A program made the position numbers and the translations under genes. Positions 10,971-58,790 of a DNA stretch of 64,000 nucleotides are shown here, one piece after another. Origin of the DNA: Pseudomaricurvus alkylphenolicus. Its GTDB lineage: Bacteria > Pseudomonadota > Gammaproteobacteria > Pseudomonadales > Cellvibrionaceae. Numbering within the stretch: the stretch's first letter is position 1; every line of letters begins with the position of its first letter. The DNA lies in contig NZ_JAAQPI010000001.1 of NCBI RefSeq assembly GCF_011683955.1, forward strand, positions 248,001 to 312,000, read 5' to 3'. A model generated the notes under the pieces. It had not been told where the DNA came from. It did not search any database and worked only from the letters and a program-made list of their open reading frames with translations.

Positions 10971-11064
10971 AGTGAGTCTCTCCACGTTTTTTGTGTTAAT
11001 AGTTACAGACTGAATAAAAGACTTGGGAATGCTACCGCTGCATCTTTCACATCAGATAACTGAT

Positions 11065-11133
11065 ATTGTACTTATGAATCTTGCCAGCGATGTATAGCTA
11101 CAGTCATAAACCTTTTGTAATTGATCGTAATTG
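11065..11133 (-). promoter_or_regulatory. Type A promoter/operator upstream of TonB receptor 1
   Basis: On the + strand an ATTGTA (minus-strand -10 TACAAT, 11065-11070) lies 40 bp from CATAAACC (11105-11112), with ATGTA between them and TTTTGTAATTGATC beyond. The same elements at nearly the same spacing occur at 14983-15053 and 58723-58790. No good -35 box is present, as expected for an activator-dependent promoter. The likely binder is the PchR-like AraC regulator encoded at 15203 or its paralogue at 58948. The -10 is ~95 bp upstream of the receptor ATG. Confidence 0.6.
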
Positions 11134-11143
11134 AAAGAGCCGT

Positions 11144-12385
11144 CTAGTTTGCGCACTTCAGAGTCACCTCAAGCAGACGATCACTACGCACATCGCCCAC
11201 TGTGACTCCCATGCGGTTATTGCAGTAACCAAAACCTATGCCCGTGTCCGGATCTGCATGTGCCAGATTACCCCCGCCGCCAAAATGGAAATAGCTCCTG
11301 GGCCGATTAATCAGGTGTTGTTGCGTTGAGTTTGGCTTCATACAGCCCCCCTGAAACAAGGTGGTCTTCCCTTCCAAAACTGCATCCCGCTCATCGACCC
11401 CCGTTTTGGGATGCGTTTTTTCCAGCTCAGCAAGGATCTCCGGCGCTAGTCCCAGCACTTCACCACCCGAAGCACACACTCCCATAATGTGGGCCATGGC
11501 GCGAGCGGTTCCAATACCATTCCCTCCCGGCAATTCGATTTTTCGCAATGCACGACTATGGAATGCGGAAAGATCCCCTACCTCAGGTGGATTATGCAGC
11601 ATTCGGACCTGAAGCGATTGCTTCTGAAATCGTTTTGGAATAAATCCCAGTACTGCTGTTCTTGGCGAATCCGAAACGGCCTCAACCAAAGTCCTCCAAT
11701 TCACGATTTCATTGGCCACACGATCGTCTGAAATCGAATCCGGCAAACCGATGTAAAACTCTTCATTGAGTCGTTGGTTGATTTCCTCTCTGACAAAACA
11801 GCCAATGCTTCTCGATTTCGGGTCTGTTCGCCGCATGATCTCATTGCAGTACATTCCATAAGTCCAGCCATGGTAACCATGACGGGTTCCAGGCTCCCAT
11901 TGTGTATTTTGACAAGCCAGAATCTCACTGAGCGTATCGTAGTCTGCAAGCAAATCCAGTGTTAGAGGTTCGTTGACGATTGGCAGGCCGGCGGAGTGAT
12001 TGAGAATCTGGCGAATGGTGATATCCTGTTTGCCGTTAACCGCAAATTCCGGCCAGTGAGCTGCCACCCTATCATCTAATTGAAAGTATCCTCGCGACAT
12101 GGCCATCGCCATAGCGATGGCGGTAATAGCTTTTGTGCTGGAATGAACGCAGGCCATTGTATCGTATTCCCAACGTCTGGCTTTGTTCTTATCCTTGTAT
12201 CCGCCCTGCAGATCAAACAGCAGTTTATTGCCTCGAAAAGCCGAACATGCGGCTCCAATCTCACCGCGTTTGCGAAAGTTCTCCTTGAAGGCACTCAGAA
12301 CCGGCTCGAAGCCAGGTAAAATCGACCCAGCGATGGGGTAACCCTCTACGCTCTCAGAGACCTTATACATACTTGCTATATCCAT
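11144..12385 (-). CDS. Beta-lactamase-fold serine hydrolase (class C / EstB-like esterase)
   Basis: 413 residues from the ATG at 12385 (an overlapping GTG at 12388 is an alternative). The family's catalytic Ser-x-x-Lys is S82-S83-T84-K85 in CVHSSTKAITA. A Tyr-containing segment GYHGWTYGMY near residue 168 and a C-terminal Gly-rich strand HFGGGGNLAH complete the usual set. Such proteins are mostly family VIII esterases. No signal peptide is evident, so it probably acts in the cytoplasm. It is last in the minus-strand run that starts with the M24-fold gene, 54 bp after the alpha/beta hydrolase. It differs from the SQTK-type paralogues at 19073 and 45511. Confidence 0.82.
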   Translation of the reverse strand: MDIASMYKVSESVEGYPIAGSILPGFEPVLSAFKENFRKRGEIGAACSAFRGNKLLFDLQGGYKDKNKARRWEYDTMACVHSSTKAITAIAMAMAMSRGYFQLDDRVAAHWPEFAVNGKQDITIRQILNHSAGLPIVNEPLTLDLLADYDTLSEILACQNTQWEPGTRHGYHGWTYGMYCNEIMRRTDPKSRSIGCFVREEINQRLNEEFYIGLPDSISDDRVANEIVNWRTLVEAVSDSPRTAVLGFIPKRFQKQSLQVRMLHNPPEVGDLSAFHSRALRKIELPGGNGIGTARAMAHIMGVCASGGEVLGLAPEILAELEKTHPKTGVDERDAVLEGKTTLFQGGCMKPNSTQQHLINRPRSYFHFGGGGNLAHADPDTGIGFGYCNNRMGVTVGDVRSDRLLEVTLKCAN

Positions 12386-12439
12386 CACTTATCCCTTCCA
12401 GTTAGCCAGTCATTGCGGGTCGGAATTTATTCATATTGA

Positions 12440-13300
12440 TTACCATTGATACGCTTTTAGTTCGTTGAGCAACAAGGTTCCAATATCGTCAATTCCAGAG
12501 GGAGCCTTCGCCAGAGATGTATGATCGTAGCCCGGCAGCTCTACCACCCGCCAGCCGAGTCGCTCAAGATCACTCCGGCGTTTTCGATTATTCTCAGCAA
12601 GTGGGATGACCAGCTTCATATCCGGCTCGCCAATATCGTCGGAACCAAAGTAGGTGATCCTGGGGCCCGTCAGTTTCGCAATCTCTTTTTCTTCGTCCCA
12701 CTTGCCAACAAGAGACTTGTAGTAATTGGTGATGGAGTCCAACATATTTGTCAGGTTTCTGAATACCATAAGTTTTTTGCTGGGAATCAATCTCCTGACA
12801 ATCGAATTTCGGGTTATCACTTTCAAAAATCTAGCGGACAATCCATCGTTCCATTTCACCATGAATTCCAGCAATTCCTCATAAGGACCGGATAAGGGAG
12901 GCCAGCCTCCGATAGCGACACCCGCACATCGATCCGTTCGGATAGCAACCTGAAGAACGGCATTTGCACTCCATGAATACCCGAGAGCGACAAACCGATC
13001 GACACCCGCAGCATCGGCGACAACCAGGTAATCCGAAGCTACCGTTTCGGCCGTGAGATCTTCACTGTTGCGATCCGACTTCCCCACCCCTCGAGGGTAA
13101 TCAAAGAGAACAATCTTGAAATGTTCTCCTAACCTTTCAATAAATGCTCGATTGATGTTTCTCTGGTGATCAGCGCCGCCGACACCGAATTCTGCGAAGG
13201 CATCAGCCCAGGGATAATTTACAAACAGGGCTTGACCATCAGCTTTTCCCTTTATCTCGTAGTACAGCCGGCATCCATCACTTGTTGTGGCATATGGCAT
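12440..13300 (-). CDS. Alpha/beta hydrolase with GxSxS nucleophile elbow
   Basis: 286 residues, single alpha/beta hydrolase domain. The start ATG at 13300 follows AAGGTGA. The nucleophile elbow reads GYSWS (S109) where the family normally has GxSxG. A late His lies in GYDHTSLAK near residue 262, and an acidic residue in YFGSDDIGEPD near 225 may complete the triad. The opening MPYATTSDGCRLYYE is almost the same as the paralogue at 61155-62039. It probably hydrolyses an ester or a related bond of the module's substrate; the reaction is not known. It lies between the small membrane protein and the beta-lactamase-fold esterase. Confidence 0.78.
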   Translation of the reverse strand: MPYATTSDGCRLYYEIKGKADGQALFVNYPWADAFAEFGVGGADHQRNINRAFIERLGEHFKIVLFDYPRGVGKSDRNSEDLTAETVASDYLVVADAAGVDRFVALGYSWSANAVLQVAIRTDRCAGVAIGGWPPLSGPYEELLEFMVKWNDGLSARFLKVITRNSIVRRLIPSKKLMVFRNLTNMLDSITNYYKSLVGKWDEEKEIAKLTGPRITYFGSDDIGEPDMKLVIPLAENNRKRRSDLERLGWRVVELPGYDHTSLAKAPSGIDDIGTLLLNELKAYQW

Positions 13301-13356
13301 TCAGCATCACCTTCAATTCTGTCTTGGGGAGGTTACGTTTGTCGATTTGACTGCTT

Positions 13357-13776
13357 TTATACTGGACTACTGAGATAGGTCGACCAGGCAATCAACAGGC
13401 CAATGGCGAGTACCAGGCTGCCATAACCATTGATAATTACCGCCCACCACCAAGCAGCCGAAGAAGAATATGCCTTCATGCCCGCAGGCGATCTTGCAGC
13501 CTCGATGTGACGCCAAAACCCGAGGCGACCCAGCAACAGCAGAATAATCGGCGCGGTGTAGCAGTAAAGAACTTCCAGGCTTAAAAAACCTACTAATATT
13601 GGCAATGCAAACACCGGCAGACTCATCAAAGAGTGCAGCGGCTGATCACGCTCACCGACCAGGGCTCGCCCTCCACGATACACTCGGTATATTCCCACGA
13701 TATTATAGACAACGGCCATGACCAACCACAGTATCTGAGCGGAAAGCCAAAATGAGAGCTGACTCAACACAATCAC
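13357..13776 (-). CDS. Small integral membrane protein, unknown function
   Basis: 139 residues starting at GTG, overlapping the M24 gene stop by four bases (GTGA), so it is probably translationally coupled to it. About four hydrophobic segments are visible: residues ~8-30, ~48-68, ~70-86 and ~108-132. The short charged loops include RVYRGGRALVGERDQ and GFWRHIEAARSPAGMKAY. I do not recognise the family. Its place inside a hydrolase operon suggests an inner-membrane role connected to substrate handling, but this is only context. Confidence 0.7.
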   Translation of the reverse strand: MIVLSQLSFWLSAQILWLVMAVVYNIVGIYRVYRGGRALVGERDQPLHSLMSLPVFALPILVGFLSLEVLYCYTAPIILLLLGRLGFWRHIEAARSPAGMKAYSSSAAWWWAVIINGYGSLVLAIGLLIAWSTYLSSPV

Positions 13777-14939
13777 TCCTTGATAGGCAGTGTCATCTCT
13801 TCCAGACTGTCTGCCATTGGTGTCATCGAAACATTACCCTTGTCGGTGGTCATAACCGTATCCGAGTGGCGGAAACCGCCAACCCCGGGCAGATAGATAC
13901 CAGGCTCAATGGTAAAAAACATACCCGGTTCGATTTCACGATGGTAGCCCTCCGCCAGGAACGGTGCCTCATGGCCCGTTACCCCGATACTATGTCCAGT
14001 TCGATGCAACAGATTGTCCTCGTAACCGGCTTTCTTCAGAACATTGTTTACGGCTTCGTCAACATCGTGCATCACATTACCCGGAACCGCCAATTCATAG
14101 GCTTTCGCCCGCGCCTCCATCATTACTTCGTAGGGTTTCTTAGCCACTTCCGGAACATGTCCCAGAAAGAATGTGCGTTCCACTTCGGTTCCATAACCGT
14201 TGATGGTGCCGTTGATAATGCAGACATGTGGACCACCCTCAGTCATGGCAACGTTGATGTCGGTAAAGTTGTGAGGGTCGTCGGATATTTCCGGCGGCTG
14301 AAATACGGCAGCGACCTTTGAACACAGCATGTTCGTATTCGGCATATCCTTCAGGGCTTGCAGCATCATCTGCCCACTAATGGAAGAACTGACGTCCATC
14401 AGCGTCCTGCCCGGTCGCGCATTCGCTAACAAAGATCCCAGGCCTTCGACGGCCAAATCACTGCTGTATTTGATTCGAGATATCTCGAAGGCCGTTTTGA
14501 CCTGACGGACATCATCGACAATATCGGTACGAACAGTAGTGCCGGGCACTTCCTCGTAGACCTGCAGGGGGCAAATCGACTCGACACCGACCCTCCCCCC
14601 TGGCTGGAACTGATCCTTAAACCGGTCTGCCCATGTCCGACCTGCAGGAGCGGGAAATTCAAAGTACTCCACCAAATCGACTTCACCGACCTTACGAGCA
14701 GTTACGTGTGGAATCTCAAGTTTTGGAACAATAAATTTCAATCTTCCGGTGATCGGAATAATAATGATAAAGGGTCGCTCGTGTACGTAATTCGCAAAGT
14801 TAGTCAGGTAGAACACATTGTCAGGACATTGAGCAACATAATAGTCCAGCCCCAGCTTGATCATCTCCGCTCTCACACGTGCAAGACGCAAGTCCATTTC
14901 TTCAGGTTCTGGGAAGGTGAAAACGGGATCAATATTCAT
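13773..14939 (-). CDS. M24-fold ('pita-bread') hydrolase, Xaa-Pro peptidase/creatinase-like, with altered metal ligands
   Basis: 388 residues with a creatinase-like N domain and a C-terminal M24 domain. The conserved His motif HRTGHSIGVTGHEAP and FTIEPGIY are present. Other metal-ligand positions are changed: the first Asp region reads INGTINGYG, the second is TEVERTF (Glu in place of Asp), and the last Glu position reads GGFRHSDT. It may therefore not be a normal dinuclear metallopeptidase; metal-independent creatinase and the DMSP lyase DddP show that the fold can do other chemistry. It is first in a four-gene minus-strand operon, 44 bp from the promoter candidate at 14983-15053, and divergent from the AraC regulator. 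Confidence 0.75.
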   Translation of the reverse strand: MNIDPVFTFPEPEEMDLRLARVRAEMIKLGLDYYVAQCPDNVFYLTNFANYVHERPFIIIIPITGRLKFIVPKLEIPHVTARKVGEVDLVEYFEFPAPAGRTWADRFKDQFQPGGRVGVESICPLQVYEEVPGTTVRTDIVDDVRQVKTAFEISRIKYSSDLAVEGLGSLLANARPGRTLMDVSSSISGQMMLQALKDMPNTNMLCSKVAAVFQPPEISDDPHNFTDINVAMTEGGPHVCIINGTINGYGTEVERTFFLGHVPEVAKKPYEVMMEARAKAYELAVPGNVMHDVDEAVNNVLKKAGYEDNLLHRTGHSIGVTGHEAPFLAEGYHREIEPGMFFTIEPGIYLPGVGGFRHSDTVMTTDKGNVSMTPMADSLEEMTLPIKE

Positions 14940-14982
14940 AAGCTCCTCGAAACAACGTATGGGTCAGTAACAGATAAGGGAT

Positions 14983-15053
14983 ATTGTAACGAGAGTTTTG
15001 AGGCAACCATGTACAGCGAAGGCCATAAACCTTTTGCAATTGATCATGATTAC
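14983..15053 (-). promoter_or_regulatory. Type A promoter/operator upstream of the M24 operon, in the AraC intergenic region
   Basis: ATTGTA at 14983-14988 (-10 for the minus-strand operon) lies 41 bp from CATAAACC at 15024-15031, with CATGTACAGC between and TTTTGCAATTGATCATGATT beyond. This closely repeats the site upstream of TonB receptor 1; AGATAA and GATATTGTA-like bases next to the -10 are also shared. It lies in the region between the M24 operon and the AraC gene, so the regulator may also control itself from here. Confidence 0.6.
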
Positions 15054-15202
15054 GCTCAATATGAATTTCGGGTAAATTATTGAAAACACGCGAGGGAAGG
15101 GAAAATTCCTTATCTCCTCTGGGACTATCAAGTGGCAACTTTTATAAATTTTGGGAATTTAAAGACGCCAGATAGCCGATTAGAACCTGGTTGACTATTA
15201 GT

Positions 15203-16255
15203 ATGAACCCCAGTTTTTACCAATTAACACCTTTAGAAATCTTCCACGGTAGACCTTTTATTGCTGGTTCTCAGCTGAACGGCGGACATTTACGAACGCC
15301 CGTTTTTTCTGAAAACTATGCCAGTTGCCAGGTTAGCGGAGGGGGCAATCTGCTTAAGATTCGCCCTTCCCGAGAATGTCATGACAGCTACATCGAAGCA
15401 TTTCAGCTTTCCCCCTATACCTCTTGCTCTATCATCAAGCTGTCGGCGAATTCCGGTCACAAATTGAGTTTCGATGGCAATGACCTGATGGGCTTCTGTA
15501 TCGGACTGAGTGGACGAAGTTATCTTCCATCCTTAGGTTCAACCTGTGTTGAGCAAGGCAATCCATTTGGCGCTCTTGTCTATGCCCCGCCGGAGGCGCA
15601 AGTCACCATAGAATCAAACAATGACTCTGACTATCAAGCAGTTAGCATAGTGTTCAAGAAATCACTGATTGAGCAGGCCCTGGGGATGGGCAGACAAGAA
15701 TTACCCAGGCATCTGTCGAGTTTCTTGTCTCATGCTGACAAAGGGTATCAACTGCAATCCTTGAAGCTGCCCTATCGCTCAATTGAACTCGCCACAGAAA
15801 TGCTCAACAGTCAGGAAGAAAGTAACCTTCGCTACATGCAGTTGTTATCCCTGGCTAACACCATGATGTTCGAGTTCCTGCGATCGCTTTCCATTGACGA
15901 CACAACACAGACCAACAAAGATGTCAAATCTCTGGCAAGAGCCAAATCGCTGCTAGAGCAGAATCTGTCCGCTCAGTACAGTCTTCAACAGCTGGCAAAG
16001 GAAGTGGGGCTCTGCAGAACCAAACTTGTTACTGGATTCAAGGATCAGTATGGAAGCACGGTAGCCGACTATCATCGAGAAGTCAGACTCAAGGAGGCCT
16101 ACCGCCTTGTCAGGCAAACCGAAAAAACGTTTGCAATCATTGCCGATGAGACGGGATTCTCGAGCTCAAATCATTTTGCCACTTGCTTCAAAAAACGGTT
16201 TCAGAAAACCCCCAGTGAAATCAGAAAGCTCAATATCGAATTACGTGGTAAGTAG
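15203..16255 (+). CDS. AraC/PchR-like transcriptional regulator, type A (module 1)
   Basis: 350 residues from the ATG at 15203. A TTG at 15191 is open, but the paralogue at 58948 aligns from this ATG. The N-terminal ~240 residues are a ligand-sensing region; the C-terminal ~100 form the double helix-turn-helix, with YSLQQLAKEVGLCRTKL and IIADETGFSSSNHFATCFKK, ending FQKTPSEIRK. The form resembles PchR, which senses Fe-pyochelin after import by its own TonB receptor. By analogy it may sense the molecule brought in by the type A receptor and activate the 11065 and 14983 promoters. It is closest in this window to the regulator at 58948-60003. Confidence 0.86.
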   Translation: MNPSFYQLTPLEIFHGRPFIAGSQLNGGHLRTPVFSENYASCQVSGGGNLLKIRPSRECHDSYIEAFQLSPYTSCSIIKLSANSGHKLSFDGNDLMGFCIGLSGRSYLPSLGSTCVEQGNPFGALVYAPPEAQVTIESNNDSDYQAVSIVFKKSLIEQALGMGRQELPRHLSSFLSHADKGYQLQSLKLPYRSIELATEMLNSQEESNLRYMQLLSLANTMMFEFLRSLSIDDTTQTNKDVKSLARAKSLLEQNLSAQYSLQQLAKEVGLCRTKLVTGFKDQYGSTVADYHREVRLKEAYRLVRQTEKTFAIIADETGFSSSNHFATCFKKRFQKTPSEIRKLNIELRGK

Positions 16256-16265
16256 AGATCTGGCC

Positions 16266-16303: not shown

Positions 16304-16305
16304 AT

Positions 16306-22547: not shown

Positions 22548-22815
22548 ATTTTGTCCTCTCCCCTCGTACGGTATTTCGAGCTGAACACGGCTCGTACATT
22601 GTCTGGATATTTTTAGTCACCGTGTTGTGACCATAGTAGTACTATTCCAGCGCCCGCTTTTCAGATTACGACCGCAAATTCTCAGCTTTCGAACAGAAGA
22701 TTCCGCTTTATTCATGATAACTTCAGCTAAGGCGACAGTGGCTGTGTTATCCCGGGGGAATTTGTTAGAATCGGGTTATTGGAGAGATCGAATATAACTT
22801 GTTGTCATATGGCTA

Positions 22816-25045: not shown

Positions 25046-26851
25046 ATGAACCCAAATACAGTTAGAATCGGCGGTGCCAGTGGCTTCTGGGGGGATTCCG
25101 CCCACGCGACGGCTCAATTCCTCGGAGACGATCATCCGGATTATATCGTCTACGACTACCTGGCCGAGATCACCATGTCGATTATGGCTCGCGCCCGCGC
25201 CAAGGACAGCAGCATGGGCTATGCAGTCAGCTTCATGACCGAAGCGATGTTACCCAACTTGCACCGAATCGCCGAGCTGGGCATAAAAGTCATTGCCAAT
25301 GCCGGCGGTGTCAATCCCGAGGCCTGCGCCAAGGCCCTGCAATCAGGGCTGGATGAAAAAGGCCTGAACCTTAAGGTCGCCTGGGTGGAAGGCGATGATC
25401 TCATCGCCCAGCGGGAGAGTTTTGCCGGAGACAAGATCACAGAAATGTTCTCCGGCGATGTTTTCCCGGCTACGGACAAGATTCAAAGTATCAACGCCTA
25501 CCTGGGTGCCTTCCCCATTGCCGAAGCTCTGAACCGGGGGGCCGATATCGTTATCACCGGCCGCTGTGTCGACAGTGCCGTCACTCTCGGCGCCTGCATT
25601 CACCACTTCAACTGGCATCGGGAAGACCTTGACCAGCTGGCCTTGGGATCACTGGCGGGACATATCCTGGAATGCGGCCCCCAGGCCACCGGTGGTAATT
25701 TCACTGACTGGGAAGATGTACCCGACAGAGACACCATCGGCTACCCGATCGCCGAAATTAACGCTGATGGTAGTTTTGTGACCACCAAACCCCGGAACAC
25801 CGGTGGTTTGGTTAATATCGGCACCGTGGCTGAACAGCTGGTCTACGAAGTCGGTGACCCTGGCGCTTACCTGTTGCCGGACGTAGTCTGTGACTTCACC
25901 GACGTCAAGCTGGAACAGCTGGGGCCCGATCGCGTCCTGGTCAGCGGCGCCAAAGGTCGTGCGGCTCCCGACAGCTACAAGGTCAGCGCAACCTATGCCG
26001 ACCAGTTTCGCGGCGGCAGCTATTGGACATTTTACGGTGTCGATGCGGACAAAAAAGCGGCGGCCTTCGCCGAGTCCATTTTCAAGGCCTCGCGCAACAC
26101 ATTTGCCAAACAACGACTGCCAGATTTCAGCGAGACCTCCATAGAGTTGATCGGTGCCGAAAGCCAGTATGGTCAGTACCAGGAACACAGTCACTGTCGG
26201 GAATTGATACTGAAGTTTGCCGCCAAGCACCCACAAAAGCGCGGTATCGACATTATGCTCAAGGAAAGCACCGGTTTAGGTCTGGCCACACCGCCGGGTC
26301 TGTCGAGCTTTGGCGGCAACCGTGCCAAAGCCTCGCCGGAGGTACGACTGTTTTCGTTCCTGGTGCCAAAGACCGGCATCGACATCAAGGTTCACATAGA
26401 CGGTTGCAGCGTCGCATGCCCTGACCCGGACGGCCAGGCCTTTGAAGCCAAGCCGCCTGAGAGCGGTAACCTTGGCAAGGCCACCAGTGAAGCCGGGGTA
26501 CCCGCAAAACTGATCGCCGTGCCACTGATCGAACTGGCCTGGGGCCGCAGCGGCGACAAAGGCAACAAGGCCAATATCGGCATTATTGCACGCAAACCAG
26601 AGTACCTGCCCTACATTAACGAGGCCCTTTCAACCGACGTCGTAGCCTCACGTTTTCAGCATTTTTTTGATGATGGCAAGGAAGTAAACGTCGAAAAATT
26701 TCAGCTGCCCGGCCTCAACGCTATTAACTTTTTACTGCACGATGTATTGGCCGGCGGTGGCATTGCCAGTCTTCGCAATGACCCTCAAGCCAAAGGCTAC
26801 GCCCAATTGCTGCTGGCCTGCCCGGTTCTCATTCCTTCATCTTTGGTGTAA
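25046..26851 (+). CDS. atuA: AtuA family protein (acyclic terpene utilization), copy B
   Basis: 601 residues, the full family length. The large N-terminal DUF1446 domain (~1-450) starts RIGGASGFWGDS and includes NAGGVNPEAC, TGRCVDSAV and GHILECGPQATGGNF. The small C-terminal domain (~490-600) begins LAWGRSGDKG. The family is essential for citronellol/geraniol catabolism in Pseudomonas, but no reaction is established. It is first in a nine-gene + strand run and lies 8 bp before atuC. Its C-terminal part matches the truncated copy at the window start, showing that the whole operon was duplicated. Confidence 0.88.
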   Translation: MNPNTVRIGGASGFWGDSAHATAQFLGDDHPDYIVYDYLAEITMSIMARARAKDSSMGYAVSFMTEAMLPNLHRIAELGIKVIANAGGVNPEACAKALQSGLDEKGLNLKVAWVEGDDLIAQRESFAGDKITEMFSGDVFPATDKIQSINAYLGAFPIAEALNRGADIVITGRCVDSAVTLGACIHHFNWHREDLDQLALGSLAGHILECGPQATGGNFTDWEDVPDRDTIGYPIAEINADGSFVTTKPRNTGGLVNIGTVAEQLVYEVGDPGAYLLPDVVCDFTDVKLEQLGPDRVLVSGAKGRAAPDSYKVSATYADQFRGGSYWTFYGVDADKKAAAFAESIFKASRNTFAKQRLPDFSETSIELIGAESQYGQYQEHSHCRELILKFAAKHPQKRGIDIMLKESTGLGLATPPGLSSFGGNRAKASPEVRLFSFLVPKTGIDIKVHIDGCSVACPDPDGQAFEAKPPESGNLGKATSEAGVPAKLIAVPLIELAWGRSGDKGNKANIGIIARKPEYLPYINEALSTDVVASRFQHFFDDGKEVNVEKFQLPGLNAINFLLHDVLAGGGIASLRNDPQAKGYAQLLLACPVLIPSSLV

Positions 26852-26859
26852 AGCCTGCT

Positions 26860-28482: not shown

Positions 28483-28504
28483 ATGTCTTTCAGGAAACAA
28501 ATCC

Positions 28505-29677: not shown

Positions 29678-29682
29678 TCGGC

Positions 29683-30318: not shown

Positions 30319-30336
30319 GAGTTATTCCACTTACCT

Positions 30337-30405
30337 GTAGCAGCCCGCTCCGAGGGCGACTGGGATTGGCACTTCGAGTCAGTCGCGGTCAGAGCCCGCT
30401 GCTAC
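30337..30405. repeat. REP-like inverted repeat (GTAGCAGC...GCTGCTAC)
   Basis: Two 26-base arms match with the pattern GTAGCAGC-GCTC-GA-GCGACTG. The few differing bases (cc/gg, gg/cc) fall in the same places in both arms. It fills most of the 118-bp gap between the GST and atuE genes and would form a stem-loop in the operon mRNA. Related units occur at 38091-38187. Confidence 0.65.
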
Positions 30406-30436
30406 GGGTTTGGTGGCTATAGAGAGATAAATTAAT

Positions 30437-31261: not shown

Positions 31262-31277
31262 CCTCGGAGAGTCACCC

Positions 31278-40427: not shown

Positions 40428-40449
40428 TGGAATTAAGAGGTTAAATCCT

Positions 40450-41370: not shown

Positions 41371-41398
41371 TAAGCGCCTTGTAATCTGGAGGATCACC

Positions 41399-42076: not shown

Positions 42077-42097
42077 GCCGCCCTGGAGGAAAGTGAT

Positions 42098-43432
42098 ATG
42101 AGTGAAGAACAGGACCTGAATGTGCAGGACGGCCTGCGTGAATCGGCCACCTTTGATCGTGTTACCATGAACGAAATTCGCCGCGCGGCGGAAACCGGTA
42201 TTTATGATATCCGCGGCTTTGGGGCCAAGCGCAAAGTACCCCACTTTGACGACCTTTTATTTCTGGGCGCCAGTATGTCCCGCTATCCGCTGGAAGGTTA
42301 TCGCGAGGCTTGCAATACCCAGGTCACCCTGGGTACCCGCTTTGCCAAGAAACCGGTGGTGATCGACACCCCGGTTACCATCGCCGGCATGAGCTTTGGC
42401 GCCCTCTCGGCCAATGCCAAAGAAGCCCTGGGACGTGGCGCCTCAGCGGCGGGCACTTCCACCACCACCGGTGACGGCGGCATGACGCCCGAGGAACGCG
42501 GCCAGTCCAGCAAGCTGGTGTATCAGTACCTGCCCTCGCGCTACGGCATGAATCCCGACGATCTGCGCAAAGCCGACGCCATCGAAGTGGTGTTGGGCCA
42601 GGGCGCCAAACCCGGCGGTGGCGGCATGCTGCTGGGTCAGAAAATTACCGACCGTGTGGCAGAGATGCGCACCTTGCCCAAGGGGGTGGACCAGCGCTCC
42701 GCCTGCCGTCACCCGGACTGGACCGGCCCCGACGATCTGGCCATCAAGATTCAGGAACTGCGCGAGATCACCGACTGGCGGGTGCCTATCTATATCAAGG
42801 TCGGCGCCACCCGCACCTACTATGACACCAAACTGGCAGTAAAAGCCGGTGCCGATGTGATCGTAGTGGACGGTATGCAGGGCGGTACCGCCGCCACCCA
42901 GGAAGTGTTTATTGAACACGTGGGTGTTCCCACCCTCGCCGCCATTCCGCAAGCGGTGCAGGCGCTGCAGGAAATGGGCATGCACCGTGAAGTACAGTTG
43001 ATCGTCTCCGGTGGTATTCGCAACGGTGCCGACGTGGCCAAGTGCATGGCTCTCGGTGCCGATGCGGTCGCCATTGGCACTGCCGCACTGGTGGCCCTGG
43101 GTTGTAACCATCCAAAGTGGGATAACGACTTTAAAAAAATCGGCTCCGCTGCAGGCTTTTACGACGATTACCACGAGGGTAAGGACCCTGCGGGAATTTC
43201 CACCCAGGACCCTGAGTTAGCTCAACGACTGGATCCTGTAGAAGGCGGTCGCCGTTTGGCCAACTATCTGCGCGTGCTCACCTTGGAAGCGCAGACCCTG
43301 GCCCGGGCCTGTGGTAAAAACGACTTGCGCAATCTCGAACCCGAAGACCTGGTGGCACTGACGGTGGAATCTGCCGCGATGGCACGCGTCCCTCTGGCAG
43401 GCACCAATTGGGTTCCGGGTCAGTCCTTCTGA
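42098..43432 (+). CDS. mgsC: N-methylglutamate synthase subunit C (FMN-binding glutamate synthase domain)
   Basis: 444 residues. It matches the FMN and Fe-S part of glutamate synthase: PVTIAGMSFGALSANAKEAL, TGDGGMTPEER, GQGAKPGGGGMLLG, IYIKVGATRTYYD, VDGMQGGTAATQ and the FMN phosphate loop VSGGIRNGADVAKCMALGAD. Cysteines ACRHPDW and ACGK are spaced differently from GltB Fe-S ligands. It would form N-methylglutamate from glutamate and the methylamine group delivered by MgsA. ATG after GAGGAAAG. The gene is intact, but the sequence just after it holds only fossils of the later pathway genes. Confidence 0.83.
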   Translation: MSEEQDLNVQDGLRESATFDRVTMNEIRRAAETGIYDIRGFGAKRKVPHFDDLLFLGASMSRYPLEGYREACNTQVTLGTRFAKKPVVIDTPVTIAGMSFGALSANAKEALGRGASAAGTSTTTGDGGMTPEERGQSSKLVYQYLPSRYGMNPDDLRKADAIEVVLGQGAKPGGGGMLLGQKITDRVAEMRTLPKGVDQRSACRHPDWTGPDDLAIKIQELREITDWRVPIYIKVGATRTYYDTKLAVKAGADVIVVDGMQGGTAATQEVFIEHVGVPTLAAIPQAVQALQEMGMHREVQLIVSGGIRNGADVAKCMALGADAVAIGTAALVALGCNHPKWDNDFKKIGSAAGFYDDYHEGKDPAGISTQDPELAQRLDPVEGGRRLANYLRVLTLEAQTLARACGKNDLRNLEPEDLVALTVESAAMARVPLAGTNWVPGQSF

Positions 43433-46817: not shown

Positions 46818-49007
46818 CTAATACTGATATTTGACATTAAGCCCAAAAGTAGCTGGTCGAGAACGCGGGCCCAGAATACCTGGATCTATGCTGGTTGGTA
46901 CGGAAGTCAGTAGACCATCCTCTCCCAGGAGGTTCTCGCCGAACAGGAATACACCCCAGTTATCGCCTTCAACACCGATTCGAGCATTCAGCAGGGTAAT
47001 TTTGTCGCTTGAATAGGCCGAACCGACGCTGTAACTCGGTTTTTCGTCAACATGCTGAATATCGAGATGGAAGACACCTTGCAGGCCTGAATCGTCCGAC
47101 GCAATCGACCATTGGTAGTCAGCAGCCGCTGAAAGGGTATATTTGGGGACTTGCTGAATCCTTGAACCCGAAGGAATTTGTGCTGGAGCCGTCCCGACCG
47201 TGTCCAGATATTCGGAGGAATTTACATTACCCCCGACCTGCAGCCTTAGTCCCGAAATACCCGTGTAAACAAAATTGGCATCTACACCATAGGATTCAGC
47301 GTTTCCACCGTTAACACCAACCAGTACAGGCGTTGGTATTCCTCCAAAATTCACGATAAATGTCTGAAAAACCTGAACATCACTCCAGTCATTGAAATAG
47401 AGTGCGCCCTCAAAGGAAAAATCACCATCCAGTAGAGTGACCTTGGTACCAACTTCGTAGGTCCACAGCTCTTCCGGATCCGCCGCAGAAATCCCATTTG
47501 GAAATGCAGAGAGTTCCGAAGCCAGATAGTTATGAGCACCCGGCCGAAACCCCTTGGCCAGATTGATATAGGTCAGAAAATCCTCAGACCAGCGCGCCGT
47601 GGCATTAAAACGGGGAGTGATATCATTGTTCTCTTCCTTGCGAGGGTTATCAACGCCAAGAAAAGCAGCGGCCGCTGCGTTAGCCGGCGCAGATTCAACA
47701 GCTGTTCGTTCGTCTTCGACATAACGCAGCCCTGCGGTTAACTCCAGAATATCGGAAAATCCAGTCCAATGAACTTCTGCGAATACCGCCCACTGTTCGT
47801 CTTCATAGTGTTCAGAAAATCCGACAATTGCCTGTGATGGTGCTGGTGGCTGGGTGAATAACGTCGCATCATCATCCTGCTCTCCCTTCAGGTAAAACAG
47901 ACCACCGTTCCAGGAAAACGCACCGTCGCCCGTTGAAGACAGTCGGATTTCCTGACTGATGGCCTCATTTTTTCGATCGATCGCAAGATCAACCAGGGTA
48001 GTGGTCAAGCCATCGACCCGTTGTTGTTCTGATTCGATATAACTGGTTGTTGAGTACAGGTCAAAGCCATCAAAGCTATACTCAATCACCGTGTTATAAA
48101 GTGAGAATTGGGAATTATCGAAATAATCCAGACCGGAATTTCCCTGTGGGATCAAAAGATTGATTGAAGTATTCACGTAATCAGCATTGGAGAATCCCGG
48201 AGCGGCATCCGCTTCCGAGTGCCAGACAGAACCCCGAACTTCCAGGTTGTCCGTCGGGGTGTAGGTCAGTCTTGCACGTACCGTAGTCCGCTCTGAATCA
48301 TTAAAGTCATTCTCCGCCGTAACCACATTGTCAACGTAACCTCCATTGTCTTCATGACCGACAACAAACCTCAAACCCAGAACCTCATCAATCACCGGCA
48401 CATTGAGGGCGGCATTAACGCCATAGTTACTCCCTCCCCCTTCCGTATTGGATCCGCTGATATCCAGCTTAACTTCATAATCGGAGGTATCAGCAGGTTG
48501 CGTTCGCACAATAACCGCGCCGCTCGAAGAACCCGCGCCATACAGGGTTCCTTGCGGGCCACGCAGTATCTCCACTTGCTGCAAGTCAAATGGATTGATG
48601 TCCGGCACATGTGAGGTATTGATCAGCGTGAAAGGCAGGTCGTCAAAGTAGTAACCTACCGTAGCATCGCCAAAGTCAGAGGAGATACCACGTATCTGGA
48701 TGCTCATCTCGTTGGCGCCTGTTGTCTGGGTAAAATTAACTCCTGGCGCTCCGGCCAGGGCATCCTGAATTGAGTCAGCCCCCATGTGTTCAAGCTGGTC
48801 GCCTGATACGCCTGTAATGGCGAAACCGGTATCCATCACCGATCGGCCTTCACCGCGTTTTTCAGCCAAAATAACAATTTCTTCGAGAACAAATGCGTCA
48901 TCAATAGCGCTATCCGCTTCCTGTGCACCTGCTTGTGCGGCAACCACGGTCGCGATAGCCGTGGCGAGATACCACGATGGAAAAAAACACTTGTTATGAT
49001 TATTCAT
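46818..49007 (-). CDS. TonB-dependent outer-membrane receptor, type B (module 3)
   Basis: 729 residues from the ATG at 49007, which follows TTGAGGAG; the frame opens at 49052 but without such a site. Signal peptide ~1-29 (AIATVVAAQAGAQ), then VLEEIVILAEKR. The plug has IQIRGISSDFGDATVGYY, DDLPFT and VEILRGPQGTLYGAGSSSG. The barrel ends LNVKYQY. It shares most with the receptor at 20385. The divergent AraC gene starts at 49241; the 233-bp gap (49008-49240) holds no gene. Ligand unknown. Confidence 0.9.
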   Translation of the reverse strand: MNNHNKCFFPSWYLATAIATVVAAQAGAQEADSAIDDAFVLEEIVILAEKRGEGRSVMDTGFAITGVSGDQLEHMGADSIQDALAGAPGVNFTQTTGANEMSIQIRGISSDFGDATVGYYFDDLPFTLINTSHVPDINPFDLQQVEILRGPQGTLYGAGSSSGAVIVRTQPADTSDYEVKLDISGSNTEGGGSNYGVNAALNVPVIDEVLGLRFVVGHEDNGGYVDNVVTAENDFNDSERTTVRARLTYTPTDNLEVRGSVWHSEADAAPGFSNADYVNTSINLLIPQGNSGLDYFDNSQFSLYNTVIEYSFDGFDLYSTTSYIESEQQRVDGLTTTLVDLAIDRKNEAISQEIRLSSTGDGAFSWNGGLFYLKGEQDDDATLFTQPPAPSQAIVGFSEHYEDEQWAVFAEVHWTGFSDILELTAGLRYVEDERTAVESAPANAAAAAFLGVDNPRKEENNDITPRFNATARWSEDFLTYINLAKGFRPGAHNYLASELSAFPNGISAADPEELWTYEVGTKVTLLDGDFSFEGALYFNDWSDVQVFQTFIVNFGGIPTPVLVGVNGGNAESYGVDANFVYTGISGLRLQVGGNVNSSEYLDTVGTAPAQIPSGSRIQQVPKYTLSAAADYQWSIASDDSGLQGVFHLDIQHVDEKPSYSVGSAYSSDKITLLNARIGVEGDNWGVFLFGENLLGEDGLLTSVPTSIDPGILGPRSRPATFGLNVKYQY

Positions 49008-49240
49008 AGCTGAACTCCTCAATGTACCGCTTATATAAAATGGGACAGACACTAAACTGCACCAATTGTGTTCAGATCCATGTTAGTGCAGATACAACTT
49101 CCCCATTTCCCTCCGCGGACGAACAATTTCCCGTATCGTTCATAGGCCGGTATTGGTATACATTGAGTGGTCATTCGTTCAGGTGTATTATGGTTAAGCG
49201 CCTTTTAATATAACAATTGCCTATATAGAATGAGTTTATC

Positions 49241-53257: not shown

Positions 53258-54820
53258 TCAATTGACAGCAGATGTTTTATCCTGCCAATAGGGTTCTCTC
53301 AGTTCCCGCTTCAAGACTTTTCCTGCCCCGGAAAGTGGAAAGGCTTCCTCTCGAAACGAAACGCTGCGGGGCTGTTTATAGTTGGCGATCTTACCTTTGG
53401 TGTGCGAAAAGATGCTGTCTTCCGTCAGGTTGGCATCGCGTTTGGGAATCACAATCGCATGCACCGCTTCGCCCCATTTATCCGACGGAATACCAATAAC
53501 CGCTACCGCTTCGACATCGGGGTGCGTAGAAATGGCGTTTTCCACCTCCGCCGAAAAAACGTTTTCACCACCGGAAACAATCATGTCTTTGACGCGATCA
53601 ACGATAAAGATAAAACCATCTTCATCACGGTAAGCGCCATCGCCGGTTTTCACCCAGCCATTGATCAGCGTTTGCTCGGTCTGTTTTGGCAGATTCCAGT
53701 AGCCCGACATTGCCCCGGGAGAGCGGGCGTAGATTTCTCCCACTTCTCCATTAGCAAGGTCGTGGCCATTTTCGTCACAAATCCTGACCTCCACCCCTGG
53801 TACCGCTACTCCGGCGGAGCGGAGCTTTCCTCCCTGTTTAAATCCTTCCCGGTGATCCTCTGCATTAAGATTGGTGATCACGGGGCCCATTTCGGTTTGA
53901 CCATAACCCTGAATGATATTGAGGTTTGGAAAATACTCCAGCAGCTGACTCAACAACCCTTCTGGCATGGGTGATGCGCCATAGATACAGGTGTGCAAGG
54001 ATTTAAGCTTTTCGGGGTCAAATTGTGGATGAGACAGCACCATTCCCCACATGGTGGGAACCAGGATGGTATGGGTCACAGAATATTGTTCGACCATGTC
54101 CATTGCGCGCTGGGGATCGAATGTTGGCAGAAACACGTGCGTCATACCACTGCTCATGGTTGCACCCGAATAAGCGCCGTCCGCCAGGTGAAACATGGGT
54201 GCCGCATGCAGATAGGCGCCGCCGCGATTGTAGTTGACATTGACACTGTTAACGACGTTGTTGTACCAGATGGCCTGGTGAGACAACATTACGCCTTTGG
54301 GAAAACCGGTGGTGCCGCCGGTATAATAGATTCCAGCCAGATCGTCTCCACTGCGCTCGGCATCATCACAGGGTTGGTAGCCTCTGATCAATGCTTCGTA
54401 GTCCAGCATCCCCGCCGGAACCTCACCGTCATCACAGAAGATGACGCTTTTGACCCCATTGGCCTCTTTCTGAATATCGTCCAACTGAAGTGAAAAAGCC
54501 CGGTCAACCAACAGGATCTTCGCACCTGAGTCATTAAGCGCATAAGCGTTTTCTGTCGCGGACCAGCGGGTATTAAGAGGTACGACCAGGCCGCCGCTCC
54601 ACCAGACGGCATAGTAGTACTCCAGATATCGATCGGAATTTAGCGACAGCATGGCAACACGGTCACCCTGGTTGACACCCAGATCGCGAAGCCCTTTTGC
54701 CAACCTGGATACCCGGTCCTGCATCTCGGACCAGGTATGTTGTCGCTCTCCCATTATTGTCGCCAATTTGTTGGGCTTGGCCATTGCCACCGTTTTTAAA
54801 GGTTGTGTCAGGTTATACAT
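53258..54820 (-). CDS. AMP-forming acyl-CoA ligase of type A module 4
   Basis: 520 residues, same length as the ligase at 7033-8595. P-loop YTGGTTGFPKG at 166-176, GYGQTEMGP, KTGDGAYRDE and A10 lysine K501 in SGAGKVLKREL. The closing VSFREEAFPLSG and start MYNLTQPLKTVAMAKPN also match. ATG after AGGTGAGAG. It lies 27 bp after the carboxylesterase gene. The ligase is a core member of type A modules and probably activates the acid freed by the esterases. Confidence 0.85.
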   Translation of the reverse strand: MYNLTQPLKTVAMAKPNKLATIMGERQHTWSEMQDRVSRLAKGLRDLGVNQGDRVAMLSLNSDRYLEYYYAVWWSGGLVVPLNTRWSATENAYALNDSGAKILLVDRAFSLQLDDIQKEANGVKSVIFCDDGEVPAGMLDYEALIRGYQPCDDAERSGDDLAGIYYTGGTTGFPKGVMLSHQAIWYNNVVNSVNVNYNRGGAYLHAAPMFHLADGAYSGATMSSGMTHVFLPTFDPQRAMDMVEQYSVTHTILVPTMWGMVLSHPQFDPEKLKSLHTCIYGASPMPEGLLSQLLEYFPNLNIIQGYGQTEMGPVITNLNAEDHREGFKQGGKLRSAGVAVPGVEVRICDENGHDLANGEVGEIYARSPGAMSGYWNLPKQTEQTLINGWVKTGDGAYRDEDGFIFIVDRVKDMIVSGGENVFSAEVENAISTHPDVEAVAVIGIPSDKWGEAVHAIVIPKRDANLTEDSIFSHTKGKIANYKQPRSVSFREEAFPLSGAGKVLKRELREPYWQDKTSAVN

Positions 54821-54847
54821 CTCTCACCTTGTTTTTTCTCTCTGAGG

Positions 54848-56395
54848 TTACATCAGAACGCTGTGTTTCCAGATATCAATGACTTCCCGCTCCATGGGCC
54901 AGGGTTTCACCTCGAATGTGGTATTAAACAGCATCACCTCACCACGTTGATTGTTGTATCTTGGCCATGTGGGGCAGCTTGTATTGTTCGGATCTCCCGT
55001 TTTGATAAAAGCTACCCAGTAGTTGTGAATCGTTGTGGAGACATCGTAGGGTTTGCAGTCACCAATCAGGCTGTCGGCCTGCCAGTTATCCATACGATTA
55101 AATGTAAACGGAACCTCCAGAAAATGATGCGCACCCAGGCGCCCCTCCATCTGGGGAGTTTCCCAGTCGAACCGATACATCCAAACATTGTCGCTGTTTG
55201 CAGCCTGGTACTCGGTAAAGATATGAGTGATGGCGGAGAACATCTTGTCCGATTCAATGCGAATGCAAAATTCAAAGTCACTAATACCCTGATGATTCGA
55301 CTGATACCGATGCAGGAGAGACTCCGACTCCTCCCCCAGAGCAGCCTGCAGCGAAAGTCTGGCCACCTCGGGGTTAAAAAACGCCGTTGAGGTATCCACC
55401 ATAAACAGACTGCTCTCGTCCTTGGTATAGCCAATCAAGACATCAATGTCTTTGCAGAAACCCTGCTGGACTGCGGTGTTGGGTGAGACGGGCAAGGAGT
55501 CCGTGCCATGCACTGGCAAGAAGGCCATATATCCAACAGCGCACTTGACCCCGAACTTCTCGAGTTTTCCATCCCCCGCCGGATCCAGCAGCTCCTCCGA
55601 GAGTTCGGTCTGAGTCTGAAGAATATCCTCTATCTGTAACTTGCAGAGAGCTTCGGTATCACCGCGCTCAATGCCCAGTCGTTCCATCATCAAGGACGTA
55701 ATGTTGTTGGCTTCATCTCTGGAAAGAGAATTTGGCAGAGCCTGACTCTGAAGGATGGCCCGCTTGAAGAGACCTTTCGCCTCCGGCATGGCCAACAGCG
55801 TGGCCACCGCCATTCCCCCGGCGGACTCACCACCAATGGTGACGTTATCCGGGTCGCCCCCGAAGGCTCTAATATTGTCTCGCACCCATTGCAGTGCGGC
55901 AATTTGATCCCTCTGGCCCAGATTGTCCGAACCATTCAAAGACGGAAAATAGTCTGCCAGATGCATATAGCCCAACGCGCCCAGCCGATAATTGATGGTC
56001 ACCGTCACTATGCCATCTCTCGCAAACGAGGAGCCGTCGTATACCTCGTCGGAGTTGCAGCCCATAAAGAAACCGCCACCATGAATCCACACATACACCG
56101 GCAAATTCCTGGCCTCTGTATCCGGTGTGTAGATATTGAGATTCAGGCAGTCGTCCCCTGCAGGGTATTTGGGAGAACACAGGTCACCAAAATAGCCGTG
56201 GGCTTTGACCTGCGGCACAGTCGCGCCATAGCTGTCAGCGACGAACTCCCCCTCCCAAGGTTCTGGCAAAACCGGAGGCTTAAACAAATTCCCACCAAAC
56301 GGCGGTTGGGCATAGGGTATTCCCCGAAAAACCGCGACACCGTTTTCCTCGACACCGGCAATCCTGCCATTGGCTGTCTTTACCACAGACTGCAT
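54848..56395 (-). CDS. Type B carboxylesterase
   Basis: 515 residues, usual family length. The oxyanion-hole loop is VWIHGGGFFMG near 103, the disulfide-type motif DDCLNLNIYTP near 81, the nucleophile S191 in GGESAGGMA, an acid in YTKDESSLF near 320 and a His in GAHHFLEVPF near 425. No signal peptide is evident, so cleavage is likely cytoplasmic. It follows the TonB receptor by 58 bp. The family cuts a broad range of carboxylic esters; the substrate is unknown. Confidence 0.87.
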   Translation of the reverse strand: MQSVVKTANGRIAGVEENGVAVFRGIPYAQPPFGGNLFKPPVLPEPWEGEFVADSYGATVPQVKAHGYFGDLCSPKYPAGDDCLNLNIYTPDTEARNLPVYVWIHGGGFFMGCNSDEVYDGSSFARDGIVTVTINYRLGALGYMHLADYFPSLNGSDNLGQRDQIAALQWVRDNIRAFGGDPDNVTIGGESAGGMAVATLLAMPEAKGLFKRAILQSQALPNSLSRDEANNITSLMMERLGIERGDTEALCKLQIEDILQTQTELSEELLDPAGDGKLEKFGVKCAVGYMAFLPVHGTDSLPVSPNTAVQQGFCKDIDVLIGYTKDESSLFMVDTSTAFFNPEVARLSLQAALGEESESLLHRYQSNHQGISDFEFCIRIESDKMFSAITHIFTEYQAANSDNVWMYRFDWETPQMEGRLGAHHFLEVPFTFNRMDNWQADSLIGDCKPYDVSTTIHNYWVAFIKTGDPNNTSCPTWPRYNNQRGEVMLFNTTFEVKPWPMEREVIDIWKHSVLM

Positions 56396-56453
56396 GTTTT
56401 ACTCCACTACGATGATTGGGACCGGGACAGGGGGCCGAACACCCCTGCGTCCC

Positions 56454-58631
56454 TCAAAAGTTGTAGTTTACTTCGACGCCGACCGTGCGAGGTTTAAGCC
56501 TCACTGCCGGAACACCATAACCATCGAAGACGGCCAACTGGGACAAGGCACCATCTTCATTGGAGAGATTCTCGACGGTCAGGAAAACACCCGTCTGATC
56601 ATTCAACTCTATACCGATCCTGGCGTTGATAACGGTGGTCGCATCAGACGTAAAGGATGAAAACAGGGCATAGTCGGTGCGTTCATCGGTATAAACGGCA
56701 TTGAGAAAGGCTGAAGCCATCATATCTCCCAGCTGCCAGCGGTACGCGGCTGACGCTGAGAGAGTCGCTTCCGGTGCCATACTCACCTGATCCCCTTTCT
56801 GAGTGCCCGTACCCGCGCCGTCGTCCTGATACTCGGTTTCATTGATATTGCCCGACATGGAAAGGATCAGCCCCTCGATGCCACGATAGACCAGACCCAA
56901 CTCAAAGCCGGTGCCCTCCGCAGAGGCAGCATTCTCACCGTAGGTACCCGGAGCGCCCTGGGCATCGATAAAGGTGACGAAGGTCTGAATGTCATCCCAT
57001 TCGAGGTAATAGGCAACCGCCTCCAGTGACAGGTCACCTTCCAAAAAGCTGACCTTGGCCCCCAACTCGTAGCTGGTCACCAGCTCCTCATCGGCGACTT
57101 CCGGCACCACAACACCCACACCGGCACCCGACACAATGCTGTAACCCAGATTCATATAACCACTGCGGAACCCTTGCGCCACGTTAAGATAATAAAGAGA
57201 GTCTTCATCGGGCGTCCAGGCCAGATTCAGTCGTCCCGTGGGCTTTTCAAAGGTATCCTTGCGTGGATTAGCAATACCAAATAACCCCAGGAATGGTGCC
57301 GAAGGCCCCTCATCCCTCGCTTCTCGCTCGTCCTCAAAGTAACGGGCACCAAGCGTCATTGTCCAGGTGTTCGCCAGTTGATAATGCAGCTCGCCATACA
57401 ACGCCCACTGCTGTGATGACGAGGTGCCATTGGTGAACTCAGTCATTGAAATGGTGGGTACGCCCTGAAAAACGAATCCGGCATCAGAGGCGGCTGTGGT
57501 TTCCATGTCCTGGTACATCAAACCTGCCGTCCAGTTTAATCGTCCTTCCAGACTGGTGCTAACGCGAAATTCCTGGGAAAAGCTTTCGGATGTGTTTTGC
57601 AGAACGAATGGTGTCCCCAGCGAGTCATACCCCTGTACAGAATCCCCCTCAAGATAGGAGGTAGTGCTGACGAATACGAAGTTGTCGGACACATATTCGA
57701 CACTGACACCATAGAGATCAGACTCGTTTTCCGTCGAAGAAAAGGCTGCCTCTGCAGGGCGTACGCTACCCGACGGCATAAAGGTAACAGGATCGAGTTC
57801 AAAAAAAACGGCGCTGTAATTCAATTCTTCGTCCGCAAAGGGCGCCGGCTGGCTGTTTTCTGTGTGCCAGACAGACGCCTTGATGGACAGCTTTTCCGTT
57901 GGCGTGTAGAGCAGTTTCGCTCGATAGGAGGAATCCTCCATATCATTGAAGTTATCGATACCCTCAAGCGGGCGGTCGATATAACCCGCCTGCTCAATCT
58001 GGGAGCCGACCACCCTGAGCGCCAGAGTATCTTCCAGCAGCGGTATATTTACCGCGCCCTGCACCTTCCAGTTGTTGCCACCGCTTTCGGTAAAGGAGGT
58101 AGCGACAGTGGTTTTCCCGGAAAACTCATTTAGATAAGGATCCTGGGTGATGATACGAACCGTACCACCGGAAGATCCGGAGCCGTAGAGGGTTCCCTGG
58201 GGACCGCGCAATACCTCAACACGGTTTAAGTCGTAGGGATTGAGTTCCGGGGAAACGTTCTGCCCCACCCGCGTAAAGGGCATATCGTCCAAGTAATAGC
58301 CCACCGGAGAATCGCCAATGGTGGATGAGATGCCTCTGATCTGGACAGATTCCCCCTGCCCGCCCACCTTCGAAGAACTGACACCGGGATTGACTGAAAT
58401 AGCTTCGAACAGTGAGGTGTAGCCACGCGCTTCCAGCTCCGCGCCGCCTACGGCCGATATGGCAAGCGGGGTATCTGCGACCGAAGCCCCTTCTGACCGT
58501 TTCTCTGCCGTGACTATAATTTCCTCAAGCATCCAGTCATTGTCGTTGGCCCAAAGCGTGCTCGTGGCTGTGCTTATGGCCATGAATAGCAGACCCTGTT
58601 TGAGTCGGCTGCTTGTCTGAGTTGTCAACAT
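56454..58631 (-). CDS. TonB-dependent outer-membrane receptor, type A (module 4)
   Basis: 725 residues. ATG at 58631 after CTGGAGAG. Signal peptide ~1-28, mature LEEIIVTAEKRSEGASVADT. Plug motifs IQIRGISSTIGDSPVGYY (residues ~105-122), DDMPFT and VEVLRGPQGTLYGSGSSGG; the barrel ends VEVNYNF. It is highly similar to the receptor at 8796 along the whole length, including SLYYLNVAQGFRSGYMNLG and VTSYELGAKVSFLEGDLSLE. It heads an operon of seven genes down to 50354. Its promoter candidate is at 58723-58790. Confidence 0.9.
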   Translation of the reverse strand: MLTTQTSSRLKQGLLFMAISTATSTLWANDNDWMLEEIIVTAEKRSEGASVADTPLAISAVGGAELEARGYTSLFEAISVNPGVSSSKVGGQGESVQIRGISSTIGDSPVGYYLDDMPFTRVGQNVSPELNPYDLNRVEVLRGPQGTLYGSGSSGGTVRIITQDPYLNEFSGKTTVATSFTESGGNNWKVQGAVNIPLLEDTLALRVVGSQIEQAGYIDRPLEGIDNFNDMEDSSYRAKLLYTPTEKLSIKASVWHTENSQPAPFADEELNYSAVFFELDPVTFMPSGSVRPAEAAFSSTENESDLYGVSVEYVSDNFVFVSTTSYLEGDSVQGYDSLGTPFVLQNTSESFSQEFRVSTSLEGRLNWTAGLMYQDMETTAASDAGFVFQGVPTISMTEFTNGTSSSQQWALYGELHYQLANTWTMTLGARYFEDEREARDEGPSAPFLGLFGIANPRKDTFEKPTGRLNLAWTPDEDSLYYLNVAQGFRSGYMNLGYSIVSGAGVGVVVPEVADEELVTSYELGAKVSFLEGDLSLEAVAYYLEWDDIQTFVTFIDAQGAPGTYGENAASAEGTGFELGLVYRGIEGLILSMSGNINETEYQDDGAGTGTQKGDQVSMAPEATLSASAAYRWQLGDMMASAFLNAVYTDERTDYALFSSFTSDATTVINARIGIELNDQTGVFLTVENLSNEDGALSQLAVFDGYGVPAVRLKPRTVGVEVNYNF

Positions 58632-58722
58632 TTGTCTCTCCAGTCCTCTTATTTTAGTGCATACAACCTGAACAGCTCACTGAGAGTTGTGCTCTCTGTG
58701 CTTGTTGAGTCAAGGAAGCTTA

Positions 58723-58790
58723 ATTGTATCGAGAGCGTTTGTCGGTGATGTACACTAGCAGCCATAAAGTCTTTGAAAACGGCCGTCATT
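58723..58790 (-). promoter_or_regulatory. Type A promoter/operator upstream of TonB receptor 4
   Basis: ATTGTA (58723-58728; minus-strand -10 TACAAT) lies 40 bp from CATAAA (58763-58768), with GATGTACAC between and a weaker TCTTTGAAAAC beyond. The order and spacing are those of the sites at 11065 and 14983; CGAGAG after the -10 is shared with the 14983 site. The -10 is ~92 bp from the receptor ATG. The remaining part of the 316-bp gap (58632-58947) holds no other feature I can support. Confidence 0.58.

Follow-up and report, generated by a model that had tools for sequence, protein, structure and literature searches.

Three minus-strand promoters in a 64,000-nucleotide stretch of the Pseudomaricurvus alkylphenolicus genome (contig NZ_JAAQPI010000001.1, positions 248,001 to 312,000; hereafter the window) have in common a 72-bp block, at 11065-11136, 14983-15055 and 58723-58794, whose likeness is far above chance. 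Another copy, the fourth, is found 1.6 kb past the end of the window, at G000:C11:313633-313704, and we refer to the four as sites 1 to 4. Our analysis confirms the block as a real and specific promoter family of ordinary mechanism. Very probably it acts as operator and core promoter in a small regulon of AraC type, and would be read by three sister activators, A1, A2 and A3. A first-pass annotation of the window had predicted an activator-dependent promoter for the neighbouring AraC proteins and had tied it to genes linked to receptors; the former remains the best reading, given that all three regulators of the A clade pair with a site and that the layout resembles those of AraC and XylS, and the latter is not supported in the form given.

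Occurrence and specificity of the block

The pattern ATTGTA followed by CATAAA recurs just as it had been described, with start-to-start distances of 40, 41 and 40 bp at 11065, 14983 and 58723. It matches three times in the window and never in 100 dinucleotide shuffles. Across the 8.88-Mb genome there are four matches, the three window sites and C11:1128960, the last of which is absent from the matches of our profile search, and a reversed control has none genome-wide. The fuller pattern TTTATGRC-N6-TRTACAT is matched perfectly at exactly three places in the genome, each of them a window site; allowing up to two mismatches raises the count to 32, hardly more than the 22 of its reversed control.

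Site 4 was first spotted by eye upstream of A3, and its held-out test is a model built from the window sites alone, which ranks it fourth genome-wide (29.2 bits, expectation value (E) 6.2e-6), with the next match in 8.9 Mb at E 0.85. A profile of all four sites scores them, as training members, at 60.1-62.7 bits (site 1 at 62.2 bits, E 2.8e-16 in the genome), and the matches that follow reach 14.7, 14.3 and 12.6. When each site was left out in turn and the -10 removed, the held-out site scored 27.1-43.8 in four of four runs and the best non-site 14.2-19.5, in a search of 236,587 fetched bases, some stretches of which overlap. The site, its four copies and its specificity in this genome are matters of direct observation.

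Architecture of the block

In a 73-column alignment the block consists of TCAATTACGRYC (columns 3-14), CAAA (20-23), TTTATGRC (27-34) and TGTACAT (41-47), followed by a -10, TACAAT, that is invariant in all four sites (Table 1). The distal motif and TACAAT of the first-pass annotation are borne out, and the block is larger than that annotation saw, gaining the distal box in columns 3-14. Sites 1 and 2 do both carry CATAAACCTTTTG-N-AATTGATC, as had been noticed. In site 4 the last two of the upstream boxes deviate in several columns and read ATTGTGAC and CGAACAC.

The spacing from the boxes to the minus-strand -10 is constant at all four sites within 1 bp. Between the end of TGTACAT and TACAAT lie 19 bp (20 at site 2), and the box intrudes 3-4 bp into the -35 slot that a spacer of 17 defines. 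That slot is directly seen to be non-consensus, in agreement with the earlier claim that no -35 box is visible: at spacers of 16, 17 and 18, each of the four sites has 0-2 of 6 matches to TTGACA. Such an absence is expected for AraC activators that overlap the -35. A promoter scan covering 10900-15300 only made no call at sites 1 and 2.

Table 1. Coordinates of the promoter sites, their boxes and the associated genes in the window
Feature	Position	Strand	Basis
Site 1, conserved 72-bp putative activator site and -10; internal promoter before TonB receptor gene 8796-10970	11065..11136	-	pattern, alignment, profile
Site 1 distal box TCAATTACGATC	11123..11134	-	alignment columns 3-14
Site 1 box TTTATGAC (contains the CATAAA first noticed)	11103..11110	-	alignment columns 27-34
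Site 1 proximal box TATACAT, 4 bp inside -35 slot 11088-11093 (spacer 17)	11090..11096	-	alignment
Site 1 putative -10 TACAAT	11065..11070	-	alignment
Site 2, one extra spacer base; between AraC gene and M24-peptidase/hydrolase run	14983..15055	-	pattern, alignment, 62.7 bits (training member)
Site 2 distal box GTAATCATGATC	15042..15053	-	alignment columns 3-14
Site 2 box TTTATGGC	15022..15029	-	alignment
Site 2 proximal box TGTACAT	15009..15015	-	alignment
Site 2 putative -10 TACAAT	14983..14988	-	alignment
Site 3, between AraC gene and TonB receptor gene 56454-58631	58723..58794	-	pattern, alignment, 60.1 bits (training member)
Site 3 distal box TCAATGACGGCC	58781..58792	-	alignment
Site 3 box TTTATGGC	58761..58768	-	alignment
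Site 3 proximal box TGTACAT	58748..58754	-	alignment
Site 3 putative -10 TACAAT	58723..58728	-	alignment
AraC-family regulator A1, HTH_18 at C end	15203..16255	+	Pfam
AraC-family regulator A2, 60% identical to A1	58948..60003	+	Pfam, pairwise comparison
TonB-dependent receptor A1, Plug and barrel	8796..10970	-	Pfam
TonB-dependent receptor A2, 77% identical to A1	56454..58631	-	Pfam, pairwise comparison
Hydrolase run behind site 2 (M24 peptidase, 139-residue open reading frame (ORF), alpha/beta hydrolase, beta-lactamase-type serine hydrolase); putative operon	11144..14939	-	
Weak candidate fifth site upstream of esterase 59992-60888, not counted	60975..61028	-	profile score

Pairing of the sites with three sister regulators

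A genome search with A1 finds two close sisters, A2 (58948) and A3 (C11:313847, just past the window), at 60-61% identity, and the next paralogue is 38% identical. Their HTH_18 domains score 64.0 (A1), 80.5 (A2) and 71.6 bits (A3) against a cut-off of 33.6, and the C ends of the regulators are matched by solved AraC-type domains. A site is present in the divergent upstream region of each of these three clade-A regulators (site 4 stands upstream of A3 and faces the opposite direction), and the remaining one, site 1, lies in the same cluster as A1. This pairing is directly observed, and no profile match was reported near the five next-closest AraC paralogues (P0003, P0004, P0011, P0012 and P0013).

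One might suppose that the block is read not by the adjacent AraC proteins but by some other regulator, or else by an alternative sigma factor, as an invariant -10 together with a -35 that is not sigma-70-like could suggest. We consider this unlikely, because the four sites track clade A with no comparable fifth found in the genome, and because the conserved boxes sit upstream of the DNA contacts made by sigma factors. Receptors that work with an extracytoplasmic function (ECF) sigma factor in the manner of FecA have an N-terminal signalling (STN) domain, whereas in receptors A1 and A2 a Pfam search at E 0.001 reports only Plug and barrel and no STN domain, so we see no sign of FecA-type sigma signalling. 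It is also very unlikely that the site mainly serves the divergent AraC genes, as an operator through which they are autoregulated or repressed: three of the four sites do fall within a regulator's own upstream region, but site 1 lies 4 kb from the regulator and directly before a receptor gene, and the equal spacing to the minus-strand -10 extends to all four.

Conservation of the block

Between sites, the core is identical at 41-48 of 72 positions in the six pairs, and its edge is sharp, with near-chance identity in both flanks: 7-14 of 30 downstream (six pairs) and 17-23 of 60 upstream (the three pairs that leave out site 1, for which only 7 bases are available on that side). At four-fold degenerate positions the regulators differ by 0.56-0.70 and receptors A1 and A2 by 0.66, where unrelated sequences would be expected to differ by 0.73-0.75. 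The block, at 0.33-0.43, is thus slower-changing than the silent sites, as expected under selection. There is accordingly only a very slim chance that the likeness of the promoters is a leftover of gene-cluster duplication, inherited without any shared regulator, even though A1-A3 and both receptors are paralogues inside one stretch of about 60 kb and the closest likeness, 35 of 45 columns, is that of sites 1 and 2, which belong to a single cluster, for the core has been kept where neighbouring silent sites and flanks have diverged.

Distribution in other genomes

The clade-A regulator was sought without success in 57 relatives (E 1e-40, with 36 candidates per genome scored at most) and, with no more than five candidates scored in each genome, in 389 other genomes of the order (E 1e-45), 368 of the class (E 1e-60) and 397 of the phylum (E 1e-50); these sets overlap. 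The type A receptor was likewise not found in 96 relatives at E 1e-100, with up to 11 candidates scored in each. The 24 loci on GTDB contigs and the 20 plasmid records obtained gave only distant AraC proteins, in searches that may leave out the window's own genome. With no orthologue at the thresholds used, all of the evidence comes from paralogues of one genome.

A search of the 57 relatives with the motif gave matches in 35 at E <=0.5, all of them weak, and found no full ungapped site. The 68 matches are more than their E-values predict, and these E-values are rough. The best has E 0.009 (columns 7-58), one covers columns 2-72 (E 0.04), and the three that were inspected contain gaps of 3 to 9 bases. 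Nine stretches of about 3 kb, fetched from the relatives, encode no protein related to A1, to A2 or to either receptor at E 1e-3. Judging from these searches, the block and its regulators are a narrowly distributed addition to known AraC-type control. No description of the cluster was found in the literature searched, which is no proof of its being unpublished.

The genome itself, at 8.9 Mb, compares with 4.0-5.7 Mb in five genus members. It has at least 11 receptors matching receptor A1 at E <1e-100, A1 included and 11 being as many as were scored, and in the 96 relatives none was found at that threshold.

A proposed mechanism

The binding, activation, dimer arrangement, operons and effector of the following scheme are inferred. 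A dimer of one of the three sister AraC-family activators would bind two half-sites, TTAYGRYC...CAAA (distal) and TTATGRCY...TGTACAT (proximal), that form a direct repeat about 21 bp apart. Because the proximal half-site enters the -35 position by 3-4 bp and the -35 is non-consensus, the bound activator would recruit RNA polymerase to the TACAAT -10, probably via sigma region 4. An effector on the N-terminal domain would in this way turn on the genes for TonB receptor and acyl-coenzyme A (CoA) ligase at sites 1 and 3, and hydrolase genes at sites 2 and 4.

The repeat, a weak one, lies in columns 7-14 and 28-35 (TTAYGRYC and TTATGRCY), with agreement at 5-6 of 8 bases in all four sites, and among shifts of 8-39 a shift of 21 gives the best self-match of the profile (5.5, with shift 10 scoring 4.6). 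Several points weigh against the scheme. The score of 5.5 is below the 95% point of the all-shift null (6.06) and passes only if 21 is named beforehand (null 99% point 3.0), and there is no repeat between the second sub-boxes, CAAA in the one half-site and TGTACAT in the other. Further, the N-terminal 240 or so residues have no Pfam match (A1 and A2 at E 0.001, A3 at 0.1), and the set of sites consists of four only, all from one genome.

Known AraC-type systems offer close parallels. XylS, MekR and AraC bind tandem half-sites, and the XylS and MekR sites as written have a period of 21 (PMC4514859). The present sites would resemble XylS-Pm, AraC-araBAD and MekR in tandem half-sites for the two helix-turn-helix (HTH) motifs of each monomer, here with a weak repeat at 21, in a regulator gene beside the promoter and in a non-consensus -35; the box sequences differ, and here the sub-boxes of the half-sites are only partly alike and the sites are predicted. 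AggR sites stand 21-22 bp upstream of the -10 and are taken to overlap the -35 and contact sigma (PMC6392122). Their promoters are like ours in the fixed distance between activator site and -10, whereas each of them has a single functional AggR site and the present block has, further upstream, another conserved half. CphR-cphA2A1 of Rhodococcus likewise has imperfect direct repeats, there from -35 to -69, and a site that overlaps the -35 hexamer by two bases (PMC6205950). Unlike the present block with its three regulators, CphR-cphA2A1 has a TGCA-N6-GGNTA motif and one regulator.

Among A1-A3 the C-terminal part is identical at 74 of 105 or 106 positions and the N-terminal part at 131-134 of 235; within the former, the first HTH has 18-19 of 27 identical positions and the second 19-20 of 25. 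The stretch SSSNHFAT[CA]FK[KR]R, which we take by analogy to be the second recognition helix, is common to A1-A3 and different in the other five paralogues, so cross-binding among the three may occur but is not assured. Sites 1 and 2, both in the cluster of A1, resemble each other more closely than the other sites do, which would fit separate cognate pairs just as well. MarA, SoxS and Rob are a case of several related AraC-type proteins that read one kind of operator, with cross-talk. The present regulators would be like them only if cross-talk among A1-A3 holds, and MarA, SoxS and Rob are monomeric stress regulators, whereas A1-A3 look like local catabolic regulators. We speculate, and regard it as rather doubtful, that A1-A3, with diverged sensors and similar DNA-reading parts, may share one operator such that three different inducers feed four promoters. 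This would be a local OR-gate that arose by duplication and is so far confined to a single genome.

Genes behind the sites

The operons considered here were deduced from strand and spacing. Site 1 precedes a TonB receptor gene (8796-10970) and an acyl-CoA ligase gene (7033-8640), and site 3 precedes a receptor (56454-58631), a carboxylesterase (54848-56395) and a ligase (53258-54820). The first-pass annotation had placed every window site upstream of genes linked to such receptors. This is so for sites 1 and 3, which stand directly before them, but site 2 precedes the M24-peptidase/hydrolase run, and the run at site 4 has no receptor; it encodes a small protein whose match to Polyketide_cyc2 is weak (E 0.01, under the cut-off), an esterase, an S15-type hydrolase and a protein whose alpha/beta-hydrolase matches narrowly miss the cut-off. 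Because the fourth site precedes hydrolases without a receptor, the common factor would be the regulator, together with enzymes, and not the receptor. The substrate may be an ester, with its acid part passed on to CoA, and a nearby AtuA-family gene and biotin carboxylases hint at branched or terpenoid acids.

These last genes lie at 25046-33269 (+), where an AtuA-family gene (by Pfam; no NCBIfam match at 1e-20) is grouped with genes for a carboxyl transferase and for a biotin carboxylase. Another carboxylase set is found at 341-4833 (+). Together the two are perhaps an island for the breakdown of branched or terpenoid acids. Elsewhere in the window, 39096-43432 (+) encodes in a row a type III glutamine synthetase, a class II amidotransferase, a 262-residue ORF and a glutamate-synthase-like protein, an order that we take to resemble clusters for N-methylglutamate synthesis.

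Other candidate sites and motifs

The best non-member profile match in the fetched DNA, at 60975-61028, is a weak candidate for a fifth site and was not counted: its score of 18.2 is close to the 95% point of the null (18.4), and the highest value in 40 null runs was 22.3. It is on the right strand, and by eye it has TAAAAT 1 bp off the expected place of the -10 and a core formed by a 9-bp inverted repeat, GGCCAGAAA/TTTCTGGCC.

A second type of AraC gene, type B (22816, 49241 and contig C44), has different upstream regions (22548-22815, 49005-49240 and L039 1279-1757). Two of the three, b2 and b3, share GCACTAACATGG, roughly at a -35 position. The best 12-mer of the three regions scores 19, within the range of shuffles (mean 18.6, maximum 20), and therefore we claim no type B motif. 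Three further likenesses, from among many pairs tried, are unexplained and were not used: a stretch like TATATAGGCNNTTGTTATRTT occurs on opposite strands in 49005-49240 (b2) and in the site 3 region, 58632-58947 (23/30, shuffle maximum 20); b2 resembles b3 (22/30, shuffle maximum 20); and b3 resembles the site 2 region on the opposite strand (28/45, shuffle maximum 26).

Implications

What we describe appears to be a compact regulon with a defined motif, with three paralogous activators and four operators in a 55-kb stretch; beyond that, we would predict ordinary AraC-type control, of genes for nutrient uptake and breakdown. By connecting two TonB receptors, as well as several esterase-type genes, with a single kind of control signal, the block may narrow the search for their substrate. 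The regulon would also be well suited to asking whether duplicated regulators remain cross-wired or become insulated from one another.

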